From NCBI GenBank assembly GCA_021734785.1, contig JAIPIF010000002.1:124001-188000 (forward strand): DNA of 64,000 nt, in the 5' to 3' direction. The notes below the pieces were generated by a model. It was not told the DNA's origin. It was given only the letters and a program-made list of their open reading frames with translations, and did no database searches. The translations under genes and the position numbers were made by a program. Shown here one piece after another: positions 3,155-34,923 of this stretch (positions are counted from its first letter, which is position 1; each line of letters begins with the position of its first letter). This DNA is from Candidatus Altimarinota bacterium (GTDB taxonomy: Bacteria; Patescibacteriota; Gracilibacteria; UBA4473).

Positions 3155-3577
3155 CTAGCCGCCGCCGAGCATCTGATATTTAATCAAGTACACGATCAGC
3201 CACGCCAAAAAGGTCACCGCCAATCCAGTCAGGGCATATCGAATGGTAGTTTTTGCCTTTTCTTTGTCGTCAGAGACCCCGCTAATCATCAGCTGAAATC
3301 CGCCATACAGCAGGAAAATCACCGCAATTGATCCGGCGATCTTTGCCCCCAGATCGATCAGTTTCACAATAAAAATGAACACATCGTCCAGATGGAGATC
3401 ACCCGTTTGGATTTTTTCTGCGAGGGCTGGGTTGGTGTCTTCACTCGGCAGGACCCCATCAAAATCTTCACTCCGTTCAAATCGGGCGGGATTGTTGTTT
3501 GGTGCTTGTGCTCTCACGGGGCTCCATCCGAGTCCGAGGATCAGGAGGAGAAATGCCACTGCAAAAGATTTTTTCAT
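3155..3577 (-). CDS. VirB2/TrbC-like small membrane protein
   Basis: About 140 aa from [20 protein letters not shown], a signal peptide probably cut after VRA. A short polar stretch follows, then two hydrophobic segments ([20 protein letters not shown] and [18 protein letters not shown]) joined by a charged loop, [10 protein letters not shown]. This signal-plus-two-helix layout is that of VirB2/TrbC pilins and the pilin-like proteins common in Patescibacteria. Two more are at 43554 and 44338. Divergent from fusA. No other type IV secretion gene lies nearby, so function is open. Confidence 0.75.
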
Positions 3578-3626
3578 AGGTTCGTGGGAAATTTTCCGAG
3601 AAACCCGTCCAAAAGTCAAACTCCAG

Positions 3627-3654
3627 TTGACTTTTGCTTTCGGATTTTTACAAT
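3627..3654 (+). promoter_or_regulatory. fusA promoter
   Basis: TTGACT at 3627-3632, a 16-nt spacer and TACAAT at 3649-3654, 29 nt before the fusA ATG. Confidence 0.7.
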
Positions 3655-3683
3655 CCCGGCGAGTTTTTTTACCCGTCCTTTTC

Positions 3684-5768
3684 ATGGCCCAAAAACAACC
3701 CGTCCCTCTCAGACAAGTCCGAAACATCGGCATCATCGCGCACATTGACGCGGGCAAAACAACCGTCACCGAACGGGTTCTCTTTTATACCGGTCGCACA
3801 CACAAGATTGGTGAAGTTCACGAAGGCGAGGCGACCATGGACTGGATGGAGCAAGAGCAGGAACGAGGGATCACGATTACCTCAGCCGCGACGACCTGTT
3901 TTTGGAAAGACTGTCACATCAATATCATTGACACCCCCGGACACGTGGATTTCACGGTCGAAGTCGAGCGCTCGCTGCGTGTACTGGATGGAGCGGTGAC
4001 CGTTTTTGACGGAGTAGCCGGAGTGGAACCGCAGTCCGAGACTGTCTGGCGTCAGGCCGATAAATACAAAGTGCCGCGTATGTGTTTCATCAACAAGTTG
4101 GATCGTACCGGTGCTTCTTTTTGGGGATCCTATGACTCGATCACAGAGCGACTGACCAAAAATGCATTTCCGATCCAGATTCCGATCGGGACCGAATCAG
4201 ATTTCCGCGGGATCATCGATCTGATCACGATGAAAGCATCACTCTACTACGATGATCTGGGCAAGGACGTCCGTGTGGAGGATGTTCCAGAAGAATTTAA
4301 AGCAGAAGCCGAAAAGTGGCGGGAAAAAATGCTGGAAAAAGTCGCCGAGTCAGACGAAGAATTGATGGAAAAATATTTGGCGGGCGAAGCATTGTCCGAA
4401 GAAGAGATTCTCACCGGCATGCGCCGGGCGGTGGTGGCCAACCACTTTGTCCCCGTGCTCACCGGGACAGCCCTCAAAAATAAGGGCGTTCAGCCCCTGC
4501 TCGATAAAGTCTGTGAGCTCCTTCCCTCACCACTGGAGGTTCCCGCAGCAGAGGGAGAGGATGTGGACGATCCTGAGAAAAAGATTCTCTGCCCACCCGA
4601 TAAAGAAGACATTCTGGCTGCGCTGGCCTTCAAAATTGCCACCGATCCGTACGTGGGACGCCTTTCTTTTGTTCGAGTGTATTCCGGAAAACTGGAATCC
4701 GGATCATACGTATACAATGCCTCTTCTGGAAAGAAAGAGCGCATTGGACGGCTCCTCCTCATGCATGCCAATCACCGCGAGGAGGTCCCTGAAATTCGTG
4801 CCGGGCACATCGGGGCCATCGTGGGACTCAAGGCAACAAAAACAGGGGACACACTGTGTGATGAAAAGCACCCATTGCTCCTCGAAAATATTGAATTTCC
4901 AGAGCCCGTGATCTCGATCTCCATCGAACCCAAAACGAAAGCAGATCAGGAAAAAATGGGATTGGCGCTCCAAAAACTCGCCGAAGAAGATCCCACCTTT
5001 CGTGTCGAAACCGACGAAGAAACCAATCAGACGATTATTTCCGGAATGGGCGAGCTTCATCTGGACATCATCGTTGATCGCCTCAAACGGGAATTTAAAG
5101 TTGAAGCAAACATCGGACAGCCACAGGTCGCGTACCGCGAAACGATTCAGACGGAGGTGGATTCTGAGTACGTCCACAAAAAACAGACGGGAGGACGCGG
5201 GCAGTTTGCGCATGTCATCTGCAAGGTTCGCCCGGGAGAGCCCGGCAGTGGATTTGTGTTTACCAACTCCATCAAGGGTGCCTCGATCCCCAACGAATAC
5301 ATCCCTGGTTGTGAAAAAGGATTTCGCGAAGCCATCACCCACGGCGTACTCGCTGCATATCCTGTGGTCGACGTGGAGGTCGAGCTGATCGACGGAAATT
5401 ACCACGATGTGGATTCGTCTGAAATGGCGTTTAAGATTGCTTCCAACCAGGCATTCAAAGACGGAGCCAAACGGGCCAAACCGGCGCTCTTGGAGCCGGT
5501 GATGAAGGTCGAGGTTGTTACTCCCGAGGATTACATGGGAGACGTCATGGGCAATATTTCCTCCAAACGTGGCGTGATTCAAGAACAGGGAAACCGAGGA
5601 CTCAACAAGTTTATTCGCTCACGGATTCCGCTGGGAGAAATGTTTGGATACGCGACAGAGCTGCGCTCAATGACCCAGGGACGGGCGAGCTATACCATGG
5701 AATTTGCCGACTATCAAAAAGTCCCCACCAACGTCGCCGAAAAACTGATCGCCGACCGAAAGGGGTAG
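3684..5768 (+). CDS. fusA: Elongation factor G
   Basis: Ribosomal translocase GTPase, 694 aa from [21 protein letters not shown]1 is AHIDAGKTT at about 19-27, followed by [11 protein letters not shown] (switch I), DTPGHVDF and NKLD. Domain IV and the C-terminal fold are complete through [13 protein letters not shown]. The frame stays open upstream, but only the ATG at 3684 fits the family start, and it follows a good promoter. No Shine-Dalgarno is visible; the leader is T-rich. Monocistronic, with a terminator at 5824. Confidence 0.98.
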
Positions 5769-20323: not shown

Positions 20324-20494
20324 ATGAAAAAAATGATTGTCTTCTTCTGCCCCGACTGTCGGGGAAAGGTCGAGGTGGAGCCCTCGGACGTGATCGAGGG
20401 CGATCTGTTGGAATGTGATCTGTGTGGAGCGGAGATTTTGGTGGTCAGTGAATCTCCGATGAAATTCAAATTGGTAGAAGAGGACGATTTCTAA
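20324..20494 (+). CDS. LysW-like zinc-ribbon mini-protein, 56 aa
   Basis: Sequence begins MKKMIVFFCPDCRGKVEVEP, with CPDC near residues 9-12 and CDLC near 31-34 forming a four-cysteine zinc ribbon, then a strand-rich acidic tail ending VEEDDF. The fold and spacing resemble LysW, the amino-group carrier of the alpha-aminoadipate lysine/arginine route. The EDWGE-type C-terminus, whose last Glu carries the substrate in true LysW, is absent, and no LysX/LysZ genes are nearby. It may instead be a stand-alone zinc ribbon. Tail-to-tail with murD (4-bp overlap). Confidence 0.7.
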   Translation: MKKMIVFFCPDCRGKVEVEPSDVIEGDLLECDLCGAEILVVSESPMKFKLVEEDDF

Positions 20495-21729
20495 CGGTTT
20501 TTCACCGCCTGTTTCCACGCCTCTCCGCGCTCGCGGAAGTTTTTGTACTGATCATAACTCGGAGCCCCCGGACAGAGGACGACGCTTCCTGTGGGAGCTT
20601 TTTTCCCAATAATTTCGGCTGCCTCCGCCATCGATTTCACTCGGACAAAATTGAGACCTTCGGCCTCACACATCTGCAGGATTCTTGTTTCTGTCTCGGC
20701 CTTGAGCACGATCACCAGCGCGCGAGGGGCAAGCATCCGGAGGGCTTTCCCCAGCGACCCAAAATCCATCCCGCGGTCCTGTCCGCCCAGCACAATGGCC
20801 GCGAGTTTTCCGCTAAAAAATTGCACCGTGGCGATAGCGGATTCTGGGTTGGTGCAGATGGAGTCGTCGTAAAATTTCTGTTTCCCAATTTCTGCAAAAA
20901 ACTCGAGCCGATGGGGCAGGCCCTCAAAAGCAGTTGCGGTTTTTTTTATCGCGGCCTCCGGAAGTTTCAAGATCTGCCGGAGCGACTGGGCTGTTCCAAA
21001 ATTTTGTAAAAAATGCGGTGCGCGAAACACAGAATCTTCTGCAAAAAGACTTGCCTCCAGTGGTTGGGACAGGATCAGCCGTCCGGGAGGATTCATCATC
21101 GAGAGATGCATCCCTACCGGCTCTGGGCTGATCAAAAAATCATCTGGCTTCTGATGCTGCCAGAGATTGGACTTTGCGCGGAAATAATTTTCCGTCGTCC
21201 CGTGGCGGTCGAGGTGATCGGGAAACAGGTTCAAAAAAATGGCGATCCCGGGAGAAGTTTTTAGCCTTTCCAGCTGGTAGCTCGAGAGCTCGGCCACCAC
21301 GAAATTAATTTTTCCCGCCTGAAAATCATCCACAATTTCCAGCAGCGGCACGCCAAAGTTTCCGGCGGCGACGGCTTTTTTCCCGGCATTTTGGAGGAGT
21401 TCAGAAATAAATTTGACGGTGGTGGATTTGCCCTTGGTTCCGGAGACTCCGATCACTTTTTTGCGCTCAGCATTTGAGAGCAATCCAAAAAAGATCTCCG
21501 TTCCCGAGGTTTGATTTTCTGCGGGGATCGTTTCAAAAAATTTCCGGGGAATGCCGGGGGAAATGATCCAAATTCCCGGTTCAAATTTTACTGGAGCGTG
21601 GATCGAATCGACGATTTCGATCGGTGTTTTTGGAAAATGCTTTTTCAAAAAACGTTCACTCGCACGCCCCTCATCCCCGTGTCCGGCGATCCAAAATTTC
21701 TCAGCAGCGGCGAGTTTTTTTGCAATCAT
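20491..21729 (-). CDS. murD: MurD-type UDP-MurNAc-L-Ala:glutamate ligase (probably L-Glu-adding, MurD2-like)
   Basis: Mur ligase of peptidoglycan precursor synthesis, cytoplasmic. Central ATPase loop GVSGTKGKSTT at about 96-104, NLFPDHLDRHGT, and C-terminal LGGQDRGMDF and CPGAPSYDQYKNFRERG, typical of the MurD branch. 412 aa; the N-terminal UDP-binding domain is somewhat short. The start at 21729 overlaps the stop of the upstream 89-aa gene as ATGA, so the two are translationally coupled. Because murL lies just upstream, this ligase probably adds L-Glu rather than D-Glu, as shown for Xanthomonas MurD2. That specificity is inferred from context only. Confidence 0.9.
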   Translation of the reverse strand: MIAKKLAAAEKFWIAGHGDEGRASERFLKKHFPKTPIEIVDSIHAPVKFEPGIWIISPGIPRKFFETIPAENQTSGTEIFFGLLSNAERKKVIGVSGTKGKSTTVKFISELLQNAGKKAVAAGNFGVPLLEIVDDFQAGKINFVVAELSSYQLERLKTSPGIAIFLNLFPDHLDRHGTTENYFRAKSNLWQHQKPDDFLISPEPVGMHLSMMNPPGRLILSQPLEASLFAEDSVFRAPHFLQNFGTAQSLRQILKLPEAAIKKTATAFEGLPHRLEFFAEIGKQKFYDDSICTNPESAIATVQFFSGKLAAIVLGGQDRGMDFGSLGKALRMLAPRALVIVLKAETETRILQMCEAEGLNFVRVKSMAEAAEIIGKKAPTGSVVLCPGAPSYDQYKNFRERGEAWKQAVKNR

Positions 21730-21995
21730 TTTCGATGGAAGGTCTCCCAGATTTTCCGCAGTGGGCGGAGGGAGAGCGTGGACAGCACGTACCCGAGTGC
21801 TGGGACAAACGCGGCCCATCCGGCGTTTGGGGCCTGGATTATTTTGAGAAAAACAAACGCTCCCAGCCAGGTCAAAAAGACAATGGTTCCTCGCCGGAGC
21901 GAAGACGTTTCCCAAGATTTGTCTTTTTCAACGCGCTCATTTCGATGAAGAATTGTTTTGATTTTTTGTTCGAGATCGGTTTCGTGGTCGGTCAT
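21726..21995 (-). CDS. Small two-helix membrane protein, 89 aa
   Basis: From MTDHETDLEQKIKTIL: a charged N-terminal segment, then hydrophobic helices GTIVFLTWLGAFVFLKII and WAAFVPALGYVLSTLSL. It sits between murL and murD and overlaps murD by 4 bp. The fixed place suggests a link to precursor synthesis at the membrane, but it matches no family I know. Confidence 0.65.
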   Translation of the reverse strand: MTDHETDLEQKIKTILHRNERVEKDKSWETSSLRRGTIVFLTWLGAFVFLKIIQAPNAGWAAFVPALGYVLSTLSLRPLRKIWETFHRK

Positions 21996-22021
21996 AAGAG
22001 AGAAGAAGTGAAGAAAAGAAA

Positions 22022-23329
22022 TTAGGAAGAACAAAAAGATAGGAGCAGGGTTTCAAATTTTTTTGGCATCGCGTGGGGGTGCCATTTTTTCCAGTCGAGC
22101 TTCGGTTTCGGTACCCGCTCCGCGAGCGGCTTGAATGCGGAAAACTTTTCTGCCGCCAGGTGTACGGCAGTTTGAGATTCTTCGATTTCTCCCACACATT
22201 CAAATGGTTTGTGATTTTTGAGTCCCAGTAGGGCCTCGAGATCAGCGCGATTTTGTTTCACAAATATTTCCGGATCGCCCCACACACTTTTCCATTTTTC
22301 CGGGGAGAGAAATGCAGCGAAAAGAAGCCCCACAAAGGCACACTTGGCACACTGGCCACACCACCGTTTCTCGCCGAGCTTTGATCCTGCGAGGTGAAAG
22401 TTTCGGTTGCAGGAGCTAAAAACACTTGCCCACTCGTCCCAGCATTTTTCCGCAAAAATCTCTGCGATTCGCAGTTCACTGAGTGGACGCAGGAGTGAAA
22501 AGTATTCCACGTCCGGGGTGATGTTTTCGGCGACAAATGTTTGAAAATCTTGTTCAAATTCGAGCGACTTGGAGTACTGATGATTTATTTTTTGTCCGTG
22601 AAATTCGAGATTTTCACTGTTTGCCGAATGCTCATTCGACAGTACAATCGACTTTTGACCACTCAGCAGCGCGGTCACCACGCTGCCAAACGCGAGGATA
22701 GACGAGATCGGGACGTGGCCATTGAGTGCGCCCGCTTTGTTTAACTCCAAAAGTTCTGGCGCGATTTTGCGTGAGACTTTGAGCCGCGGGGCATCGAGTT
22801 TTTTACAGCATTCGGTTTGCACAAGTGAATCTCCGACCGTCCAGGTGACAAAGGCTTCTTCCCCCGCTCTCAAAATCTCGGCTGAGAGGAGGGAATCTTT
22901 GCCGCCGCCAATGGGAAGCATTGTCCCGTTGAGTTTTTTTACCCGCTCAGGAGCAGATTTCACAGTTTCGTTTACCGGAAAGCGAACCACTCTCCGCGGA
23001 TCAATTTTATTCTGCCAAAAAAATTCCCCCAGTCCCTGCGTCCAGAGTTTCTCAAAAAATTTGGCTTGTGCCTTGTTTACGTCGCCCTCGGCAAACACGA
23101 TGTTTTGCGGCAGGACGGACTTGAAGTACGACACGCCCGCCACGATCCAGAGAAATTTCATCGCTGCGCGCAATGGCTGTTGGTTCTGATTTTTTGCAAA
23201 CTCAAAATCAAATTTCCAGACCTCTTCAAAATTAATTTCTCCATCCAGCGAGTACCGCAAAAAGAGTTTTTTCGCGAGCGGATTCCACTCCCAGGATTCG
23301 AAAATGAATGTGTCAAACTTCCCGTGCAT
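22022..23329 (-). CDS. murL: MurL-type UDP-MurNAc-L-Ala-L-Glu epimerase
   Basis: 435 aa. MurL converts the terminal L-Glu of UDP-MurNAc-L-Ala-L-Glu to D-Glu using ATP. Diagnostic segments: LPIGGGKDS (PP-loop-like, about 139-146), GALNGHVPISSILA, VLSNEHSANSENLEF, INHQYSKSLEFEQDF, YFSLLRPLSEL, RWCGQCAKCAF and HKPFECVGEIEES. These recur throughout the family described with Xanthomonas MurL. Adjacency to a MurD-type ligase strengthens the call. The ATG is 7 nt from a TACAAC box (23337-23342), so probably leaderless. It removes the need for glutamate racemase in this step. Confidence 0.88.
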   Translation of the reverse strand: MHGKFDTFIFESWEWNPLAKKLFLRYSLDGEINFEEVWKFDFEFAKNQNQQPLRAAMKFLWIVAGVSYFKSVLPQNIVFAEGDVNKAQAKFFEKLWTQGLGEFFWQNKIDPRRVVRFPVNETVKSAPERVKKLNGTMLPIGGGKDSLLSAEILRAGEEAFVTWTVGDSLVQTECCKKLDAPRLKVSRKIAPELLELNKAGALNGHVPISSILAFGSVVTALLSGQKSIVLSNEHSANSENLEFHGQKINHQYSKSLEFEQDFQTFVAENITPDVEYFSLLRPLSELRIAEIFAEKCWDEWASVFSSCNRNFHLAGSKLGEKRWCGQCAKCAFVGLLFAAFLSPEKWKSVWGDPEIFVKQNRADLEALLGLKNHKPFECVGEIEESQTAVHLAAEKFSAFKPLAERVPKPKLDWKKWHPHAMPKKFETLLLSFCSS

Positions 23330-23371: not shown

Positions 23372-24124
23372 TTACTTCAGTTTTTCCCAGAGGAGATCGA
23401 ACATTTTTTTGTGAAAATCAGCAATTTCCTCCGATTCAATCAGGAGCGCCATCTTTTCCCGCCAGGAGGCAATCATGACTTTGTGATCGTACACATTTAC
23501 CTCTGGATTAAACGAAAATTTATCCCGATCAATCAGGCGGATTTCTCGATTTTCCTCGTGGTCGTGGGATTTCCGTTCCAGTGAGACATCATTGTCCGGG
23601 CAGATCGTGTGGATAAAAATCCCCGCAGCTGTCCGGCGACGGTAGTAGTCGGGAAAAAAGTTTGGCAACCCTCGATGCATTTCTTGCACATTCGCATACG
23701 CCCGAATATCCTCCGTCGACGTGAGGGTGTCCTCGTACGCTGCACGGACACCGGCCGCCCCCTCAAAAAACTTTACGCGCGGACGACGGACGTGGGGTTG
23801 CTCGAGGGATTTGAGTTCCGGCAAAATTTGTTCGACGAGCTCTTTTTCTCGCTCGAGTTGCCGCAGGTGCTCCTGCTGCTCTCGTTCCAGATACCGGATG
23901 AGGTTTTCCGGCGCGAGTACCTGAAACGATGTCGTGGCACCGCGCTCGGTTTTACTCGCGAGTCCTTTTTTTATCAGTGATTTAAACACATCATACACGG
24001 TGGGGCGAGAGAGCTCGGTGTGTTTTGCGATCACAGACGCTGGCTGTGAGCCCCACTTCAGGCAGCTGAGGTACACGCGAATTTCTTTGGGGGAGAGGCC
24101 GATTTGACGGAGAATCTTTTCCAT
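23372..24124 (-). CDS. TrmB-family transcriptional regulator
   Basis: 250 aa. N-terminal winged helix (LSPKEIRVYLSCLKWGSQPASVIAKHTELSRPTVYDVFKSL), a coiled-coil linker (EHLRQLEREKELVEQILPEL), and a C-terminal ligand-type domain with ADLQEM-like and DHKVMIASWREKMALLIES motifs. TrmB proteins usually sense sugars or stress in archaea and some bacteria. A perfect inverted repeat at 24142-24160 lies directly upstream, between this gene and the divergent Cys-rich protein unit, suggesting autoregulation and control of that unit. Confidence 0.88.
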   Translation of the reverse strand: MEKILRQIGLSPKEIRVYLSCLKWGSQPASVIAKHTELSRPTVYDVFKSLIKKGLASKTERGATTSFQVLAPENLIRYLEREQQEHLRQLEREKELVEQILPELKSLEQPHVRRPRVKFFEGAAGVRAAYEDTLTSTEDIRAYANVQEMHRGLPNFFPDYYRRRTAAGIFIHTICPDNDVSLERKSHDHEENREIRLIDRDKFSFNPEVNVYDHKVMIASWREKMALLIESEEIADFHKKMFDLLWEKLK

Positions 24125-24268: not shown

Positions 24269-24466
24269 ATGAACATGGAAAAAGAGCCTTCTGTTTCCAA
24301 TCGTCCTTTCTCTCAGAAAGTCTGGGAGCAGCTTCAAAGAATCTGGGAAAAAGTTCAGTCAGTTTTTCAAGAATCGGCGCCGGTGGTGCACGGAACATTT
24401 ACCGCCCCGTCCGCACGATCCGGAATGGAAAAAAATGTTTCTGATACCCTCTTTCCACAAAAATGA
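24269..24466 (+). CDS. Small hypothetical protein, 65 aa
   Basis: From MNMEKEPSVSNRPFSQKVWE; one amphipathic helix (QKVWEQLQRIWEKVQSVFQE) and a polar tail. Its stop overlaps the next ATG as ATGA (24463-24466), so the two are translationally coupled. Unknown family. It leads the Cys-rich operon, divergent from the TrmB gene. Confidence 0.55.
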   Translation: MNMEKEPSVSNRPFSQKVWEQLQRIWEKVQSVFQESAPVVHGTFTAPSARSGMEKNVSDTLFPQK

Positions 24467-26127
24467 AACAGACCTGTGCCGTCTCCGGAACGGAATTTGA
24501 AATTTCGGATTTCGAGCAATCCTTTTTGCGCGACATCGCCCCGACCTTTGCGGGACAGACCTTCGAAATACCGCTCCCAACGATTTCCCCTCTGGAGCGG
24601 GCTCGTCAGCGGACGGCCCACCGCAACGAGCAGTTTCTCTTTCGCCACAAAAACTTTTTTACCGGCAAACCAATTATTTCGGTGTACCGTCCTGATGCCG
24701 GACTCAAGGTATGCTCGCGCGAAGACTGGTTTGGGGATCAGTGGGACGGCGTGGATTTTGGGCGGGAGTTTGATTTTTCGCGTCCATTTTTTTCCCAATT
24801 TCACGAACTGCAAAAAGACGTCCCGTACGCGGCGACCGTGACCTGTCAGAATGAAAACTCAGAGTACACCACGGGGACCGGGTACTGCAAAAACTGCTAC
24901 CTCATCAATTCCTCCGAGTATTGCCATGACTGTCTGTACGGAAAACTTCTCCAAAAATGCACCAACGTCGTGGACACAGCGTTTGCGTACAATTCAGAGC
25001 TTTTGTACGAGTGCTTCAACGTCGAAAAATGCTACGACTGCAAGTGGACGTACTATTCCCAGGGCTGCCACGACTGCTGGTTTTGTGATGACTGTCGGGG
25101 GTGTCACCACTGTTTTCTCTGTACCAATTTGGTGCAAAAAGAGTACCACTTTCTCAACGAGAAACTTTCCAAATCCGAATACGAAAAACGCGTTTCAGAT
25201 TTCCTCTCCGATCATTGACACATCCAAAAAGCCAAAGAGCTTTTTGACGAACTGCGCACCAAACGCATCTACAAGTACGCCAATATCGTCAACGGTGAAC
25301 ACTGTACGGGGGATTTCATCACGAATGCTAAAAACTGTCAGGAATGCTGGGATGTTACGGATTCCGAAGACTGCCGATTTGTGCAGGTGGGTTTCGAAAC
25401 GAAAAACCTGCTCGACTGCTCCAACATGTACATCAATCCTCAGCTCTCGTACCAGACACTCGGGACACTTGAGACCTTCAACTGTCATTTTTGTCTGTAC
25501 GCATTTCATTCCTCAGATCTCTGGTACTGCGAGCAGTGTTTCAGCTGCAAAAACTGTTTCGGTTGTGTGGGGCTGCGAAATAAACAGTACTGCATCTTCA
25601 ACAAGCAGTTCAAAAAAGAGGAGTACGAAAAAGAGGTGGCAAAAATAATTGCGCACATGCAGAAGACCGGAGAGTGGGGCCAGTTTTTTCCCGTCGAGAT
25701 TTCTCCGTTCCCCTACAACGACACGGTGGCGCACGGATACTTTCCGTTGTCTCCGGAGCAAGTTTCCTCCCGTGGCTGGAAGTGGCAGGAGCGTGAAGCG
25801 CCGTCGGGAAAACCGTCAGATATGTCTTTCCCTGAAAAAATTGCGGACGTGAAGGACGAAATTTTGGACCATATTTTGGCCTGTGAAGAGTGTGGAAAAA
25901 ACTACAAACTCCAGCGAATGGAGCTTGATTTTTACCGAAACATGCATCTCCCCGTTCCTCGTGTGTGCCCGGACTGTCGGTACGATGCACGGATGGAATT
26001 GCGCAATCCGCGACAGCTCCACGATCGTTCGTGTAAAAAATGTAGAGCAGACGTTCGTTCCCCGTTTGCTCCCGATCGACCGGAGACAATTTACTGCGAG
26101 CAGTGTTATCTCGAGGCGGTGAACTAA
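24463..26127 (+). pseudogene. Cys-rich CxxC-repeat protein interrupted by in-frame TGA
   Basis: One reading frame of 554 codons from MKQTCAVSGTEFEISDF, with a single TGA at 25216-25218. Both parts align along their length with the intact paralogue at 26266. It carries over ten CxxC pairs (YCKNC, YCHDC, WFCDDC, KNCFGC), repeated NKQ(F/Y)xxEEY units and a terminal zinc ribbon (CPDC...CKKC...YCEQC). The TGA aligns with a Ser (TCA) in the paralogue, so one C-to-G change explains it. Upstream fragment 24463-25218 (251 aa); downstream part restarts no later than 25381. A sequencing error or readthrough is possible. Function unknown; metal binding is likely from the cysteines. Confidence 0.7.
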
Positions 26128-26166
26128 AAATTACAAATTACGAATGACAAATTACAAATTACAAAT
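26128..26166. repeat. ATTACAA-type heptad repeat
   Basis: Run of AAATTACAAATTACGAATGA-type units between the two Cys-rich genes; same family as 5770, 45087, 46440 and 54090. Confidence 0.65.
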
Positions 26167-26201
26167 GAGGAAAGTTGAAAGGTGAAAAAGAAAACAGTAC
26201 T

Positions 26202-26256
26202 GTCATTCCGGACTTGATCCGGAATCCATGGATCCCAAATCAAGTTTGGGATGACC
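26202..26256. repeat. 55-bp double palindrome element
   Basis: Two adjoining inverted repeats: ATTCCGGACTTGATCCGGAAT (26205-26225) and GGATCCCAAATCAAGTTTGG (26230-26249) plus flanks. Its right half is identical to 473-500 near the GIY-YIG gene. It looks like a REP/small non-autonomous element. Confidence 0.7.
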
Positions 26257-26265
26257 TCTGAAAAA

Positions 26266-27918
26266 ATGAAGCGAACCTGTGCAGTTTCCGGTCAGGAATT
26301 TGAAATCACGGATGCGGATCTGGAGTTTTACCAAAAAATAGAAGTGCCACCGCCAACATTGTGTCCTGATGAGCGGCGACGGCGACGGTTGGCGTGGCGC
26401 AACGAGCATCATCTGTACCGCCGAAAATGTGACGGCACCGGACAGTCGATCGTGTCAGTGTTTCCACCAGGGGTCTCCTTTCCTGTGTTTAAAAACACGT
26501 ACTGGTGGGGCGATGACTGGGATGGATTGGAGTACGGGCGAGATGTCGATTTTTCTCGGGACTTTTTTCCGCAATTTTTTGAATTGTACGCTGTCGTGCC
26601 TCAGATCGCCGCGATGAATGATCACGGGGTCAAAAGTGAAAATTGCGAGTACTGTCAGGATTTTTCCAACGGCAAAAATTGTTACCTCGTTTCTGGATCT
26701 TGGTTTATCCGCGACTCGTTGTACTCCTCAAACTGTAATCATTCCGTCGACCTGGTGGACTGCACATCGGTAAATTTAAAGTGTGAGCTCGTATACGAAT
26801 CAATCAACTGTCAGCATTTGTACGAATGCGCGTTTCTCGAAAACTGCGAACACTGCTCCAATTGTTGGTTTGGTCTGGATCTCAAAGGATGCAAAAATTG
26901 TTTTGGCTGCGTCAATCTTCGTCAAAAAGAATTTCACATTTTCAATGAGCCCCATACCCGAGAGGAATATTTCCAAAAAATAAAACAGTTTGATTCCGGA
27001 TCACACACCCAGCTGGAAAACATGAAAGCGCACTTTGCCGGCTTTGCCCAAAAATTCCCCCGGAAATTTGCCCAACTTCTCCACTGTGACAACTGTTCCG
27101 GTGATCATCAGTTTCACGGCAAAGACTGTTTTGGTTTCGAAAATTTTGACTGCCAGTACTCCCGATTTATCGACCGGATTGATTCAGCCGAATGGAGTTA
27201 TGATGTGATTCAGACGGGAAATCCCCGCTGGTGCTGTGATTGTGTGACGCCAGACAAATCCTGGATGGTGGTGTTTTCCAACTGGTGTTGGAACTGTAAA
27301 CACATGGCATGCTGTGACAACTGTCACGGGTGCGAGCATTGCTTCGGTTGTGTGGGACTGAAGCGAAAAAAATTCTGTATTTTCAACAAACAGTACTCCG
27401 AAGAGGAATATTTTGGCCTCCGAAAAAAATTGGTTGCGCACATGACGGAGACCGGGGAATGGGGAGAGCTCTTTCCCATTACATTTTCTCCCTTTCCGTA
27501 CAACGAGACACAGGCATTTGAACAGTACCCCCTTTCAAAAGAAGCGGCGATTGCTCGTGGCTGGAAATGGCGAGAAGATCCGTCTTCAAACCTCAATCTT
27601 CAGACTTTGAATTTCAAAATCCCAGATCACATTTCTGAGGCTGATGATCGCATTCTTGATCAAGTCCTGGTCTGTGAAGATAGCGGGAAGCAGTACAAAA
27701 TCGAGCCCCAAGAGTTGAAGTTTTACCGCAAAATGAATCTCCCGCTTCCCCGGAAATGTCCACTCGTTCGCATCCAAGAACGACAGCGGCGATGCAATCC
27801 CTGGAAACTTTTTGACCGTACTTGTGACAACTGTTCGGTTCCGATTGAGACAAGTTTCTCCCCAGACCGGTTGGAAAAAGTGTATTGCGAGGACTGTTTT
27901 CTTGGAGTGCTGAACTAA
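26266..27918 (+). CDS. Cys-rich CxxC-repeat zinc-ribbon protein
   Basis: 550 aa from MKRTCAVSGQEFEITDADLE. The N-terminal part has the AVSGxEFEI start shared with the upstream paralogue, then WGDDWDGLEYGRDVDFSRDFF. The middle is an array of CxxC motifs (NCEYCQDFSNGKNCYLV, NCEHCSNCWFGLDLKGCKNC, NCWNCKHMACCDNCHGCEHC) that may form a metal-studded repeat fold. The C-terminal zinc ribbon is CPLVR...CDNC...YCEDC; the first CxxC is lost (CPLV instead of CPDC). No signal or membrane helix. The family is known to me only as an uncharacterised Patescibacteria type. Confidence 0.8.
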   Translation: MKRTCAVSGQEFEITDADLEFYQKIEVPPPTLCPDERRRRRLAWRNEHHLYRRKCDGTGQSIVSVFPPGVSFPVFKNTYWWGDDWDGLEYGRDVDFSRDFFPQFFELYAVVPQIAAMNDHGVKSENCEYCQDFSNGKNCYLVSGSWFIRDSLYSSNCNHSVDLVDCTSVNLKCELVYESINCQHLYECAFLENCEHCSNCWFGLDLKGCKNCFGCVNLRQKEFHIFNEPHTREEYFQKIKQFDSGSHTQLENMKAHFAGFAQKFPRKFAQLLHCDNCSGDHQFHGKDCFGFENFDCQYSRFIDRIDSAEWSYDVIQTGNPRWCCDCVTPDKSWMVVFSNWCWNCKHMACCDNCHGCEHCFGCVGLKRKKFCIFNKQYSEEEYFGLRKKLVAHMTETGEWGELFPITFSPFPYNETQAFEQYPLSKEAAIARGWKWREDPSSNLNLQTLNFKIPDHISEADDRILDQVLVCEDSGKQYKIEPQELKFYRKMNLPLPRKCPLVRIQERQRRCNPWKLFDRTCDNCSVPIETSFSPDRLEKVYCEDCFLGVLN

Positions 27919-33237: not shown

Positions 33238-34923
33238 TTAGACTTCTCTCGCCACAGACTGCAGTGTCTGAATAAAATTTCCTCCCGGATCGATCCGTGG
33301 AACTTTGTTTTGCCCGCCCTCTTTTCCCAGGCGTTTCATTGTTTGGGTAAAAACACCCGAGGGAACGAGCTGAATTTCTGGCATCCCCAGCGCATTTACC
33401 CGTCGGTTGTCGCCGTATTTTGAATTCACTTCTCCGAGAATTTCATCGTACTGGCGTGTGAGGGCTTCCCGGTTTTCTGAAGCGGTTTTTTCCACTTCCA
33501 GCACAAGAAGGTGTCGAGGAGAATTATTTTCTCCTTTTTCCGCGTACGTGATGCAGTACTCACCAGTGAGAACGGGGAATTTTTGTTTCAACGCAGCAAT
33601 GGCCTGATCCATGTCGCCCTCGCGGAGTTGTTCATCGGCAGCACTCAGCTCATGATTGACACGTCCAGTGATCGAAAACGTCAGCCTGTCCGAATCATGA
33701 ATTTGTATCACATCGCCCACCACACAGCGGGGAAATGCAGGAGCGGTAGTGACCAACACATACTCTTGATCCGCTTCCGCGTCCCAGCAGGGGCGAATGC
33801 TTTCTTTCAAACAACGCTCGTCGCCCGAGGCCTGAAATTGGCGAAAATCTTTCACCGGAATGAGCTCATGCAGGATGCCGTGCTGCGTGAAAAGTTGCAT
33901 TTCCCCCTGGCCCACGTCGGCGCCAAAGTATCCCTCAGACGCGGTGTAGGTCTCACGAAAATCGGCGTCGGGAAACCATTCCTCAAACAGCTCTCGGTAC
34001 GGTCCAAATGGCGTGCCGCCATGAAAAAAGACTTTCAAATTTGGCCAGATCTCGCGCGGAGTTTTTCCCGGCTCCTGTCGCAGGATTCGTTTGACAAGCT
34101 CGGCGTGCCATTTGGGGATCCCCGCCAGCCCGGTGATATTTTTGTTTTTTGTCTTTTCTGCGATTTGATCGAGCTTTTTTTGCGGGTCTGATTCACCCAA
34201 AATTTCCATTTTGAGTGGTACCATTTGGGCAGCGAGAGGAGAAGCAGAAAGCGTCAGGTGCGAGATGTCCCCGAGCGTTCGGATGCCGCCCGGGAGTTCT
34301 TTTTTTGTCCCCCCAAAAGCAAGATGTGCTCCGTCCAGCGCGGAGGGGCCTTTTTGTGCCACGAAATGTCGGAGCGTTGTCGCCGCAGCGTGATGATGAT
34401 TTTTTATCGCTTCATCGGGGACGGGAATTATTTTTTTCCCTCCGGTGGTGCCAGCGGTTTGGGCCCAGTGTTTGATGGGATGGTTCCATAAAATGCTCTC
34501 TTTTGGATGGTCAAAGGTTTTTTGAATTTCTTTTGAAAGCGTGTGAGGGTAGTCTGGAGCGAGTTTTTCATCGTACAAAAACACGGGTATTTTTTCTCGC
34601 CATTTTTCATAACAAAGCGTTGAATCCCGGAGATCATGTTTTTCGGCAAAAGCCGTGCCCGCAAATCCCTGGCCAAGGGTTTTGAGTTGTTTGTCCTGTG
34701 CGCACTCAATGTTTTCTCTTCCCTGTGGCAATCGCTCGTAGCTGGCGGTGGAGATCTTTGCTTCGCCCCAGGCCAGGAGTTGAAACAGCTTTCTCACACC
34801 ATCTTCTTGGCCTTCTTTTTTATCAGGATTACGAACCGCCAGACGACAGAGTTTTTCTGAGAAAAAGGATTTCATCGACTCGGATTTTTGCGGAGAGAAG
34901 TTTTGTTGCGGAGAGTCTGACAT
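33238..34923 (-). CDS. GH3-family acyl-adenylating enzyme
   Basis: 561 aa. GH3 motifs: QTAGTTGGKKIIPV (P-loop-like), ITGLAGIPKWHAELVKRIL, VFFHGGTPFGPYRELFEEWFP, ETYTASEGYFGADVG and FSITGRVNHELSAADEQL. The superfamily activates a carboxylate with ATP and joins it to an amino acid or thiol. Plant GH3s conjugate hormones; bacterial substrates are mostly unknown. Full length for bacterial members. Monocistronic and divergent from typA. Two Met codons near the N-terminus leave the start uncertain by 16 residues. Confidence 0.88.
   Translation of the reverse strand: MSDSPQQNFSPQKSESMKSFFSEKLCRLAVRNPDKKEGQEDGVRKLFQLLAWGEAKISTASYERLPQGRENIECAQDKQLKTLGQGFAGTAFAEKHDLRDSTLCYEKWREKIPVFLYDEKLAPDYPHTLSKEIQKTFDHPKESILWNHPIKHWAQTAGTTGGKKIIPVPDEAIKNHHHAAATTLRHFVAQKGPSALDGAHLAFGGTKKELPGGIRTLGDISHLTLSASPLAAQMVPLKMEILGESDPQKKLDQIAEKTKNKNITGLAGIPKWHAELVKRILRQEPGKTPREIWPNLKVFFHGGTPFGPYRELFEEWFPDADFRETYTASEGYFGADVGQGEMQLFTQHGILHELIPVKDFRQFQASGDERCLKESIRPCWDAEADQEYVLVTTAPAFPRCVVGDVIQIHDSDRLTFSITGRVNHELSAADEQLREGDMDQAIAALKQKFPVLTGEYCITYAEKGENNSPRHLLVLEVEKTASENREALTRQYDEILGEVNSKYGDNRRVNALGMPEIQLVPSGVFTQTMKRLGKEGGQNKVPRIDPGGNFIQTLQSVAREV

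Follow-up and report, generated by a model that had tools for sequence, protein, structure and literature searches.

Ligation of L-glutamate (L-Glu) to a peptidoglycan precursor, followed by its epimerisation there, has been shown for the enzymes of Xanthomonas, Micromonospora and Salinispora, for the latter two in vitro (PMC8788868). In X. oryzae the ligase MurD2 and the epimerase MurL are encoded by adjacent genes (XOO_1320/XOO_1319), and there is neither a glutamate racemase (MurI) nor a D-amino-acid aminotransferase (PMC8788868). MurL consumes ATP, yields AMP, works one way and has been described as having no known domain; its published distribution covers Gamma- and Alphaproteobacteria and rare actinobacteria, with low-similarity homologues elsewhere (PMC5808125, PMC8788868). 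Here we describe a murL-murD locus in a 64-kb stretch of DNA, referred to below as the window (64,000 nucleotides in full), from contig JAIPIF010000002.1 of a Candidatus Altimarinota bacterium. The locus shares with the X. oryzae system the neighbouring ligase and epimerase genes and the absence of both MurI and a D-amino-acid aminotransferase; it differs in its host, a Gracilibacteria-type Patescibacterium, and in having relatives in which MurL and MurD form a single chain. We consider it highly probable that the locus represents the known MurD2-MurL route of peptidoglycan precursor synthesis. In this route MurD would ligate L-Glu, not D-Glu, to UDP-N-acetylmuramoyl-L-alanine (UDP-MurNAc-L-Ala), MurL would then flip the L-Glu on the precursor to the D-form, and free D-Glu and a glutamate racemase would both be unneeded.

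The murL gene (22022-23329, minus strand) encodes a 435-aa protein that, like X. oryzae MurL, matches the MurL family, with E=1.4e-106 and 356.7 bits against NF041275 (NCBIfam) over profile positions 9-395 of 447. This score is below the 700-bit cut-off of the model, which is set for Xanthomonadales only and is reached by no sampled Patescibacteria genome. The protein is about 36% identical to MurL of Rhodanobacter, and its motifs, a GGGKDS loop and the cysteines of a C-x16-C-x2-C-x2-C pattern (Cys307/324/327/330), are invariant across 50-54 homologues. PADLOC gave no result for MurL. By analogy with the characterized enzymes, we infer an epimerase activity for the window MurL. The product of murD (20491-21729, minus strand; 412 aa) scores 242 bits against TIGR01087, over the cut-off of 212, and has the MurD catalytic residues intact (the P-loop lysine and the equivalents of E157, H183, K198 and D317); from its sequence it is predicted to be a MurD2-like UDP-MurNAc-L-Ala:glutamate ligase that uses L-Glu.

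The original prediction had proposed that the organism makes D-Glu peptidoglycan without MurI, and searches of the genome support this. No glutamate racemase was found in the window genome (1.06 Mb, 9 contigs, 76.8% complete) by either PF01177 (Pfam) or TIGR00067 (NCBIfam), the PF01177 search covering this genome only, and none was found by TIGR00067 in a congener that is 99% complete. Five Mur-ligase-type genes (MurC, MurD, MurE, MurF and FolC, one each) are present in the window genome, and a search for a second murD there returned none. The incompleteness of this genome and its division into 9 contigs leave room for a racemase that exists and was missed, an explanation we regard as very improbable: the nearly complete congener is also without MurI, as are, at the cut-off used, 12 more MurL genomes of the family, and 58 of the 59 MurL genomes in a sample of 380 Patescibacteria have no strong MurI (counted at E<=1e-30). 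Alternatively, D-Glu could come from a bifunctional diaminopimelate epimerase (DapF) or from a D-amino-acid aminotransferase. Both are known alternative sources, a bifunctional DapF being reported for Chlamydia (PMC5885031, PMC8788868). Neither PF01678 (DapF) nor PF01063 (class-IV, D-amino-acid-type aminotransferase) had a match in the window genome or the congener, which largely refutes this explanation and reduces its probability almost to nil.

The distribution of the two genes points the same way. Results for the 380 Patescibacteria genomes showed MurL in 59, that is, in about one sixth of the sample, MurI in 117, both in one and neither in 205 (Fisher p=1.3e-9). Within the class of the window alone there were 21 genomes with MurL, 13 with MurI and none with both (Fisher p=1.6e-7); these p-values take no account of relatedness and serve as description. 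At the level of the window's family, 14 of the 20 genomes carry MurL and none of these has MurI over the cut-off, while the three MurI genomes, which belong to one genus, are all without MurL, and the three with neither gene are fragmented assemblies. In the sole genome of the sample with both genes (G396), the MurL homologue (L221:2445-3761) lacks NGH, has an altered GGGKDS loop and no adjoining MurD, and is possibly decayed or repurposed. The MurL-MurD2 route would account for D-Glu in a group of wall-making Patescibacteria without a racemase.

We also examined how MurL and MurD are placed relative to each other. The MurL profile gave 80 named loci from Pseudomonadota, Actinomycetota, several candidate phyla and single metagenome-assembled genomes of Bacteroidota, Bacillota and Dormibacterota. 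The two genes were adjacent or fused in 71 of these: MurL followed by MurD in 60, the reverse order in three, and a single-frame fusion in eight. In the other nine, several of them on short contigs, no MurD was counted by the script. As the pairing recurs in 71 of 80 loci and in many phyla, chance can be excluded as its cause. Fused MurL-MurD frames make up 11 of the 59 MurL genes of the 380-genome sample, and one of them, a 770-aa fusion (L016/L230), lies in a genome of the window's own family (G019). Fusions occur in many Patescibacteria, and MurL comes first in the frames L016/L230, L070, L074, L082, L117, L136, L139, L142, L158, L160, L162, L165 and L233-L239. Both domains are essentially complete in most fusions; that of G185 stops within the MurD domain. 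For the 843-aa fusion L139, structure prediction gave a model with two putative enzyme domains at a mean predicted local distance difference test (pLDDT) score of 85 and a predicted template modelling (pTM) score of 0.83.

The glutamate specificity of the ligase was assessed at positions described for X. oryzae MurD2, whose E197, R358, P433 and F435 align with D182, K348, A414 and L416 of E. coli MurD (PMC8788868). In MurD2, stereospecificity was changed by E197D and by R358K, and combining the two took the enzyme back to D-Glu, while P433A and F435L left stereospecificity unchanged; in E. coli MurD, a Lys-to-Thr change at position 319 permits L-Glu (PMC8788868). Rhodanobacter served as the Xanthomonadales reference for alignment and tree. 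The alignment gives E-R-P-F in its MurD, which reproduces the MurD2 residues and therefore validates the alignment register. The window MurD reads D-I-R-P-S-Y at E. coli positions 182/319/348/414/415/416. It thus has Arg at the R358 position, Pro at the P433 position and an aromatic residue at the F435 position, as in MurD2, and differs from it by Asp for E197 and Tyr for F435. With the canonical pair of MurI and MurD (E. coli; genus g3 of the window's family) it has in common the MurD fold and catalytic residues; it departs from that arrangement in that the window genome holds no MurI and residues 319, 348, 414 and 416 are off the E. coli pattern.

Comparison of MurDs by the gene they accompany showed that Arg348 (E. 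coli numbering here and below), present in the window enzyme, occurs in 99 of 107 MurL-linked MurDs, in none of 34 MurI-linked ones and in none of 17 from genomes with neither gene. Pro414 is found in 85 of 106, 0 of 33 and 0 of 17, respectively, and position 319 is Ile in 91 of the 107 MurL-linked MurDs, the window enzyme included. D182E was rejected as a specificity marker within Patescibacteria, with Glu in 79 of 107 MurL-linked and in 10 of 34 MurI-linked MurDs and no clean separation. In a phylogeny of the ligases, the window MurD groups with the MurL-linked enzymes, Rhodanobacter MurD2 among them, and not with the MurI-linked ones: a single branch, with a Shimodaira-Hasegawa-like approximate likelihood ratio test (SH-aLRT) value of 98, holds 100 MurL-linked MurDs. 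Three MurDs from the MurI-bearing genus also lie in this branch, and seven MurL-linked MurDs, four of them with Arg348, lie outside it. When residue was tested against MurL by independent pairs on the tree, only three such pairs were available, too few for significance. In the MurI-bearing genus (g3: G002-G004; L031, L033, L036) position 348 is Thr and position 414 is Lys, as would be expected had it given up MurL. Its MurD descends from the MurL-linked clade, in an apparent reversal to free D-Glu. Together, the MurL-linked and MurI-linked MurDs, including those of this genus, which seems to have exchanged MurL for MurI, form a contrast set that makes the switch between L- and D-Glu testable by sequence.

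Some points weigh against assigning the locus to the MurD2-MurL route. The window MurD has Asp at the E197 position of MurD2 (D182 in E. coli). In the same family there are several MurL-linked MurDs without Arg348 and Pro414 (DIGKSY, DISKSF, DIDKSF), and the residue rule therefore has exceptions. The family models for MurL and MurD stem from curation on other groups. The window genome is also incomplete, a gap for the most part answered by the 99%-complete congener. The Asp also lends some weight to a different explanation, in which the ligase has kept the D-Glu specificity of MurD or takes both isomers, D-Glu is external or made by a racemase not recognised as such, and MurL either is not needed or has another substrate. 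Also in its favour are the reduced genome and the presumed epibiont life of the lineage, for which a host or neighbour might be the source of D-Glu, and the 205 of 380 Patescibacteria with neither MurL nor MurI by the criteria used. We nevertheless judge it unlikely in view of the near-strict mutual exclusion of MurL and MurI, the adjacency or fusion of MurL and MurD in most named loci, the MurD2-type residues at 348, 414 and 416, and the placement of the ligase in the tree. Strict use of L-Glu by the window MurD is likely on these sequence grounds, in keeping with the MurD2-MurL route. The specificity switch that the original prediction had assigned to this MurD is accordingly favoured, as an inference, by the tree and by R348, P414 and the aromatic residue at 416, and it is opposed by the Asp. 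Because of that Asp, the use of L-Glu is put forward as a claim that the enzyme works like MurD2 and not as one of full MurD2 membership.

We also examined the predicted structure of MurL. A Pfam scan of the window MurL at E 1e-3 matched no family, PF06508 (QueC) included, and a sequence-profile search with MurL recovered only the PP-loop of related enzymes. The AlphaFold model (pLDDT 95.4) matches QueC from about residue 132 onward (Foldseek E 9.4e-5); in the comparison by VIA the best match was QatC (Z 18.9 over 319 residues), with QueC second (Z 13.8). We thus predict for MurL a PP-loop ATP-pyrophosphatase fold of QueC/QatC type, which is an assignment of fold and not of PF06508 membership. 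The motifs of QueC are SGGxDS and C(x)8CxxCxxC (PMC13329287). The GGGKDS loop of MurL parallels the first of these and its C-x16-C-x2-C-x2-C pattern the second, a zinc motif, and the chemistry from ATP to AMP is common to MurL and the QueC superfamily (QueC, QatC, Cap9; PF06508). MurL differs from that superfamily in having no Pfam sequence match, in its substrate, a glycopeptidyl glutamate, and in the outcome of the reaction, an epimerisation. A fold of this type fits the reported conversion of ATP to AMP by MurL, and the predicted fold lends support to a published proposal, according to which the alpha-carboxylate would be adenylated first. The assignment offers a mechanistic framework for the enzyme. 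Neither an epimerase nor peptidoglycan is mentioned in a QueC family survey from 2026.

The route itself is known. What is new in the material searched is its breadth in Patescibacteria, the fusion of MurL and MurD into one chain, and the prediction of a QueC/QatC-type fold for MurL; no report joining MurL and Patescibacteria was found in the literature searched, a scope outside which most subscription papers fall. Taken together, we lean, with some reserve, towards a broader proposal. According to it, ligation of L-Glu first and epimerisation on the nucleotide would be a major native route of Patescibacteria, served by a variant MurD2 with no need for E197. The fusions may pass the L-Glu intermediate between their sites, and MurL would be a repurposed QueC/QatC-type ATP-pyrophosphatase that adenylates and epimerises the glycopeptide.

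In the window, murD is positioned downstream of murL, with an open reading frame (ORF) of 89 aa between them (21726-21995, minus strand). The stop codon of this ORF overlaps the murD start, the two forming an ATGA with the murD ATG at 21729. A TTG start for murD at 21915, which gives a listed ORF of 474 aa, was rejected as over-extended, since a start at the ATG of 21729 agrees with the family and shares bases with the stop codon before it. The small ORF encodes a real conserved protein with two likely membrane helices, as judged by inspection. It has homologues in 10 further genomes of the family, which makes 11 of 20 with the window's own; these lie at other locations, and none of the other fetched loci has one beside MurL. 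All three genes that the original prediction had placed in one operon, the MurL gene, the MurD-type ligase gene and the 89-aa ORF, were thus confirmed on the minus strand; membership of the 89-aa protein in a functional module was rejected because its homologues lie away from MurL in relatives, and it is an operon passenger. Upstream of murL, on the same strand and after a gap of 42 bases, lies a gene for a TrmB-like transcriptional regulator (23372-24124, minus strand; PF01978, E=1.7e-12), possibly a member of the murL operon. Next to the end of murD lie mutS, in convergent orientation, and an ORF for a LysW-like zinc ribbon (20326-20493), whose C-terminal EEDDF is unlike the C-terminal Glu of LysW carriers.

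Other observations concern genes elsewhere in the window. An elongation factor G-like protein (3375-5768) has about 113 extra N-terminal residues, and its GTPase domain exceeds the profile by about 84 residues. At 24463-27918 three related cysteine-rich proteins are encoded in tandem; the one at 26251-27918 was scanned and had no Pfam match. At 33238-34923 we observed a GH3-family acyl-acid-amido-synthetase-like protein, here in a Patescibacterium.
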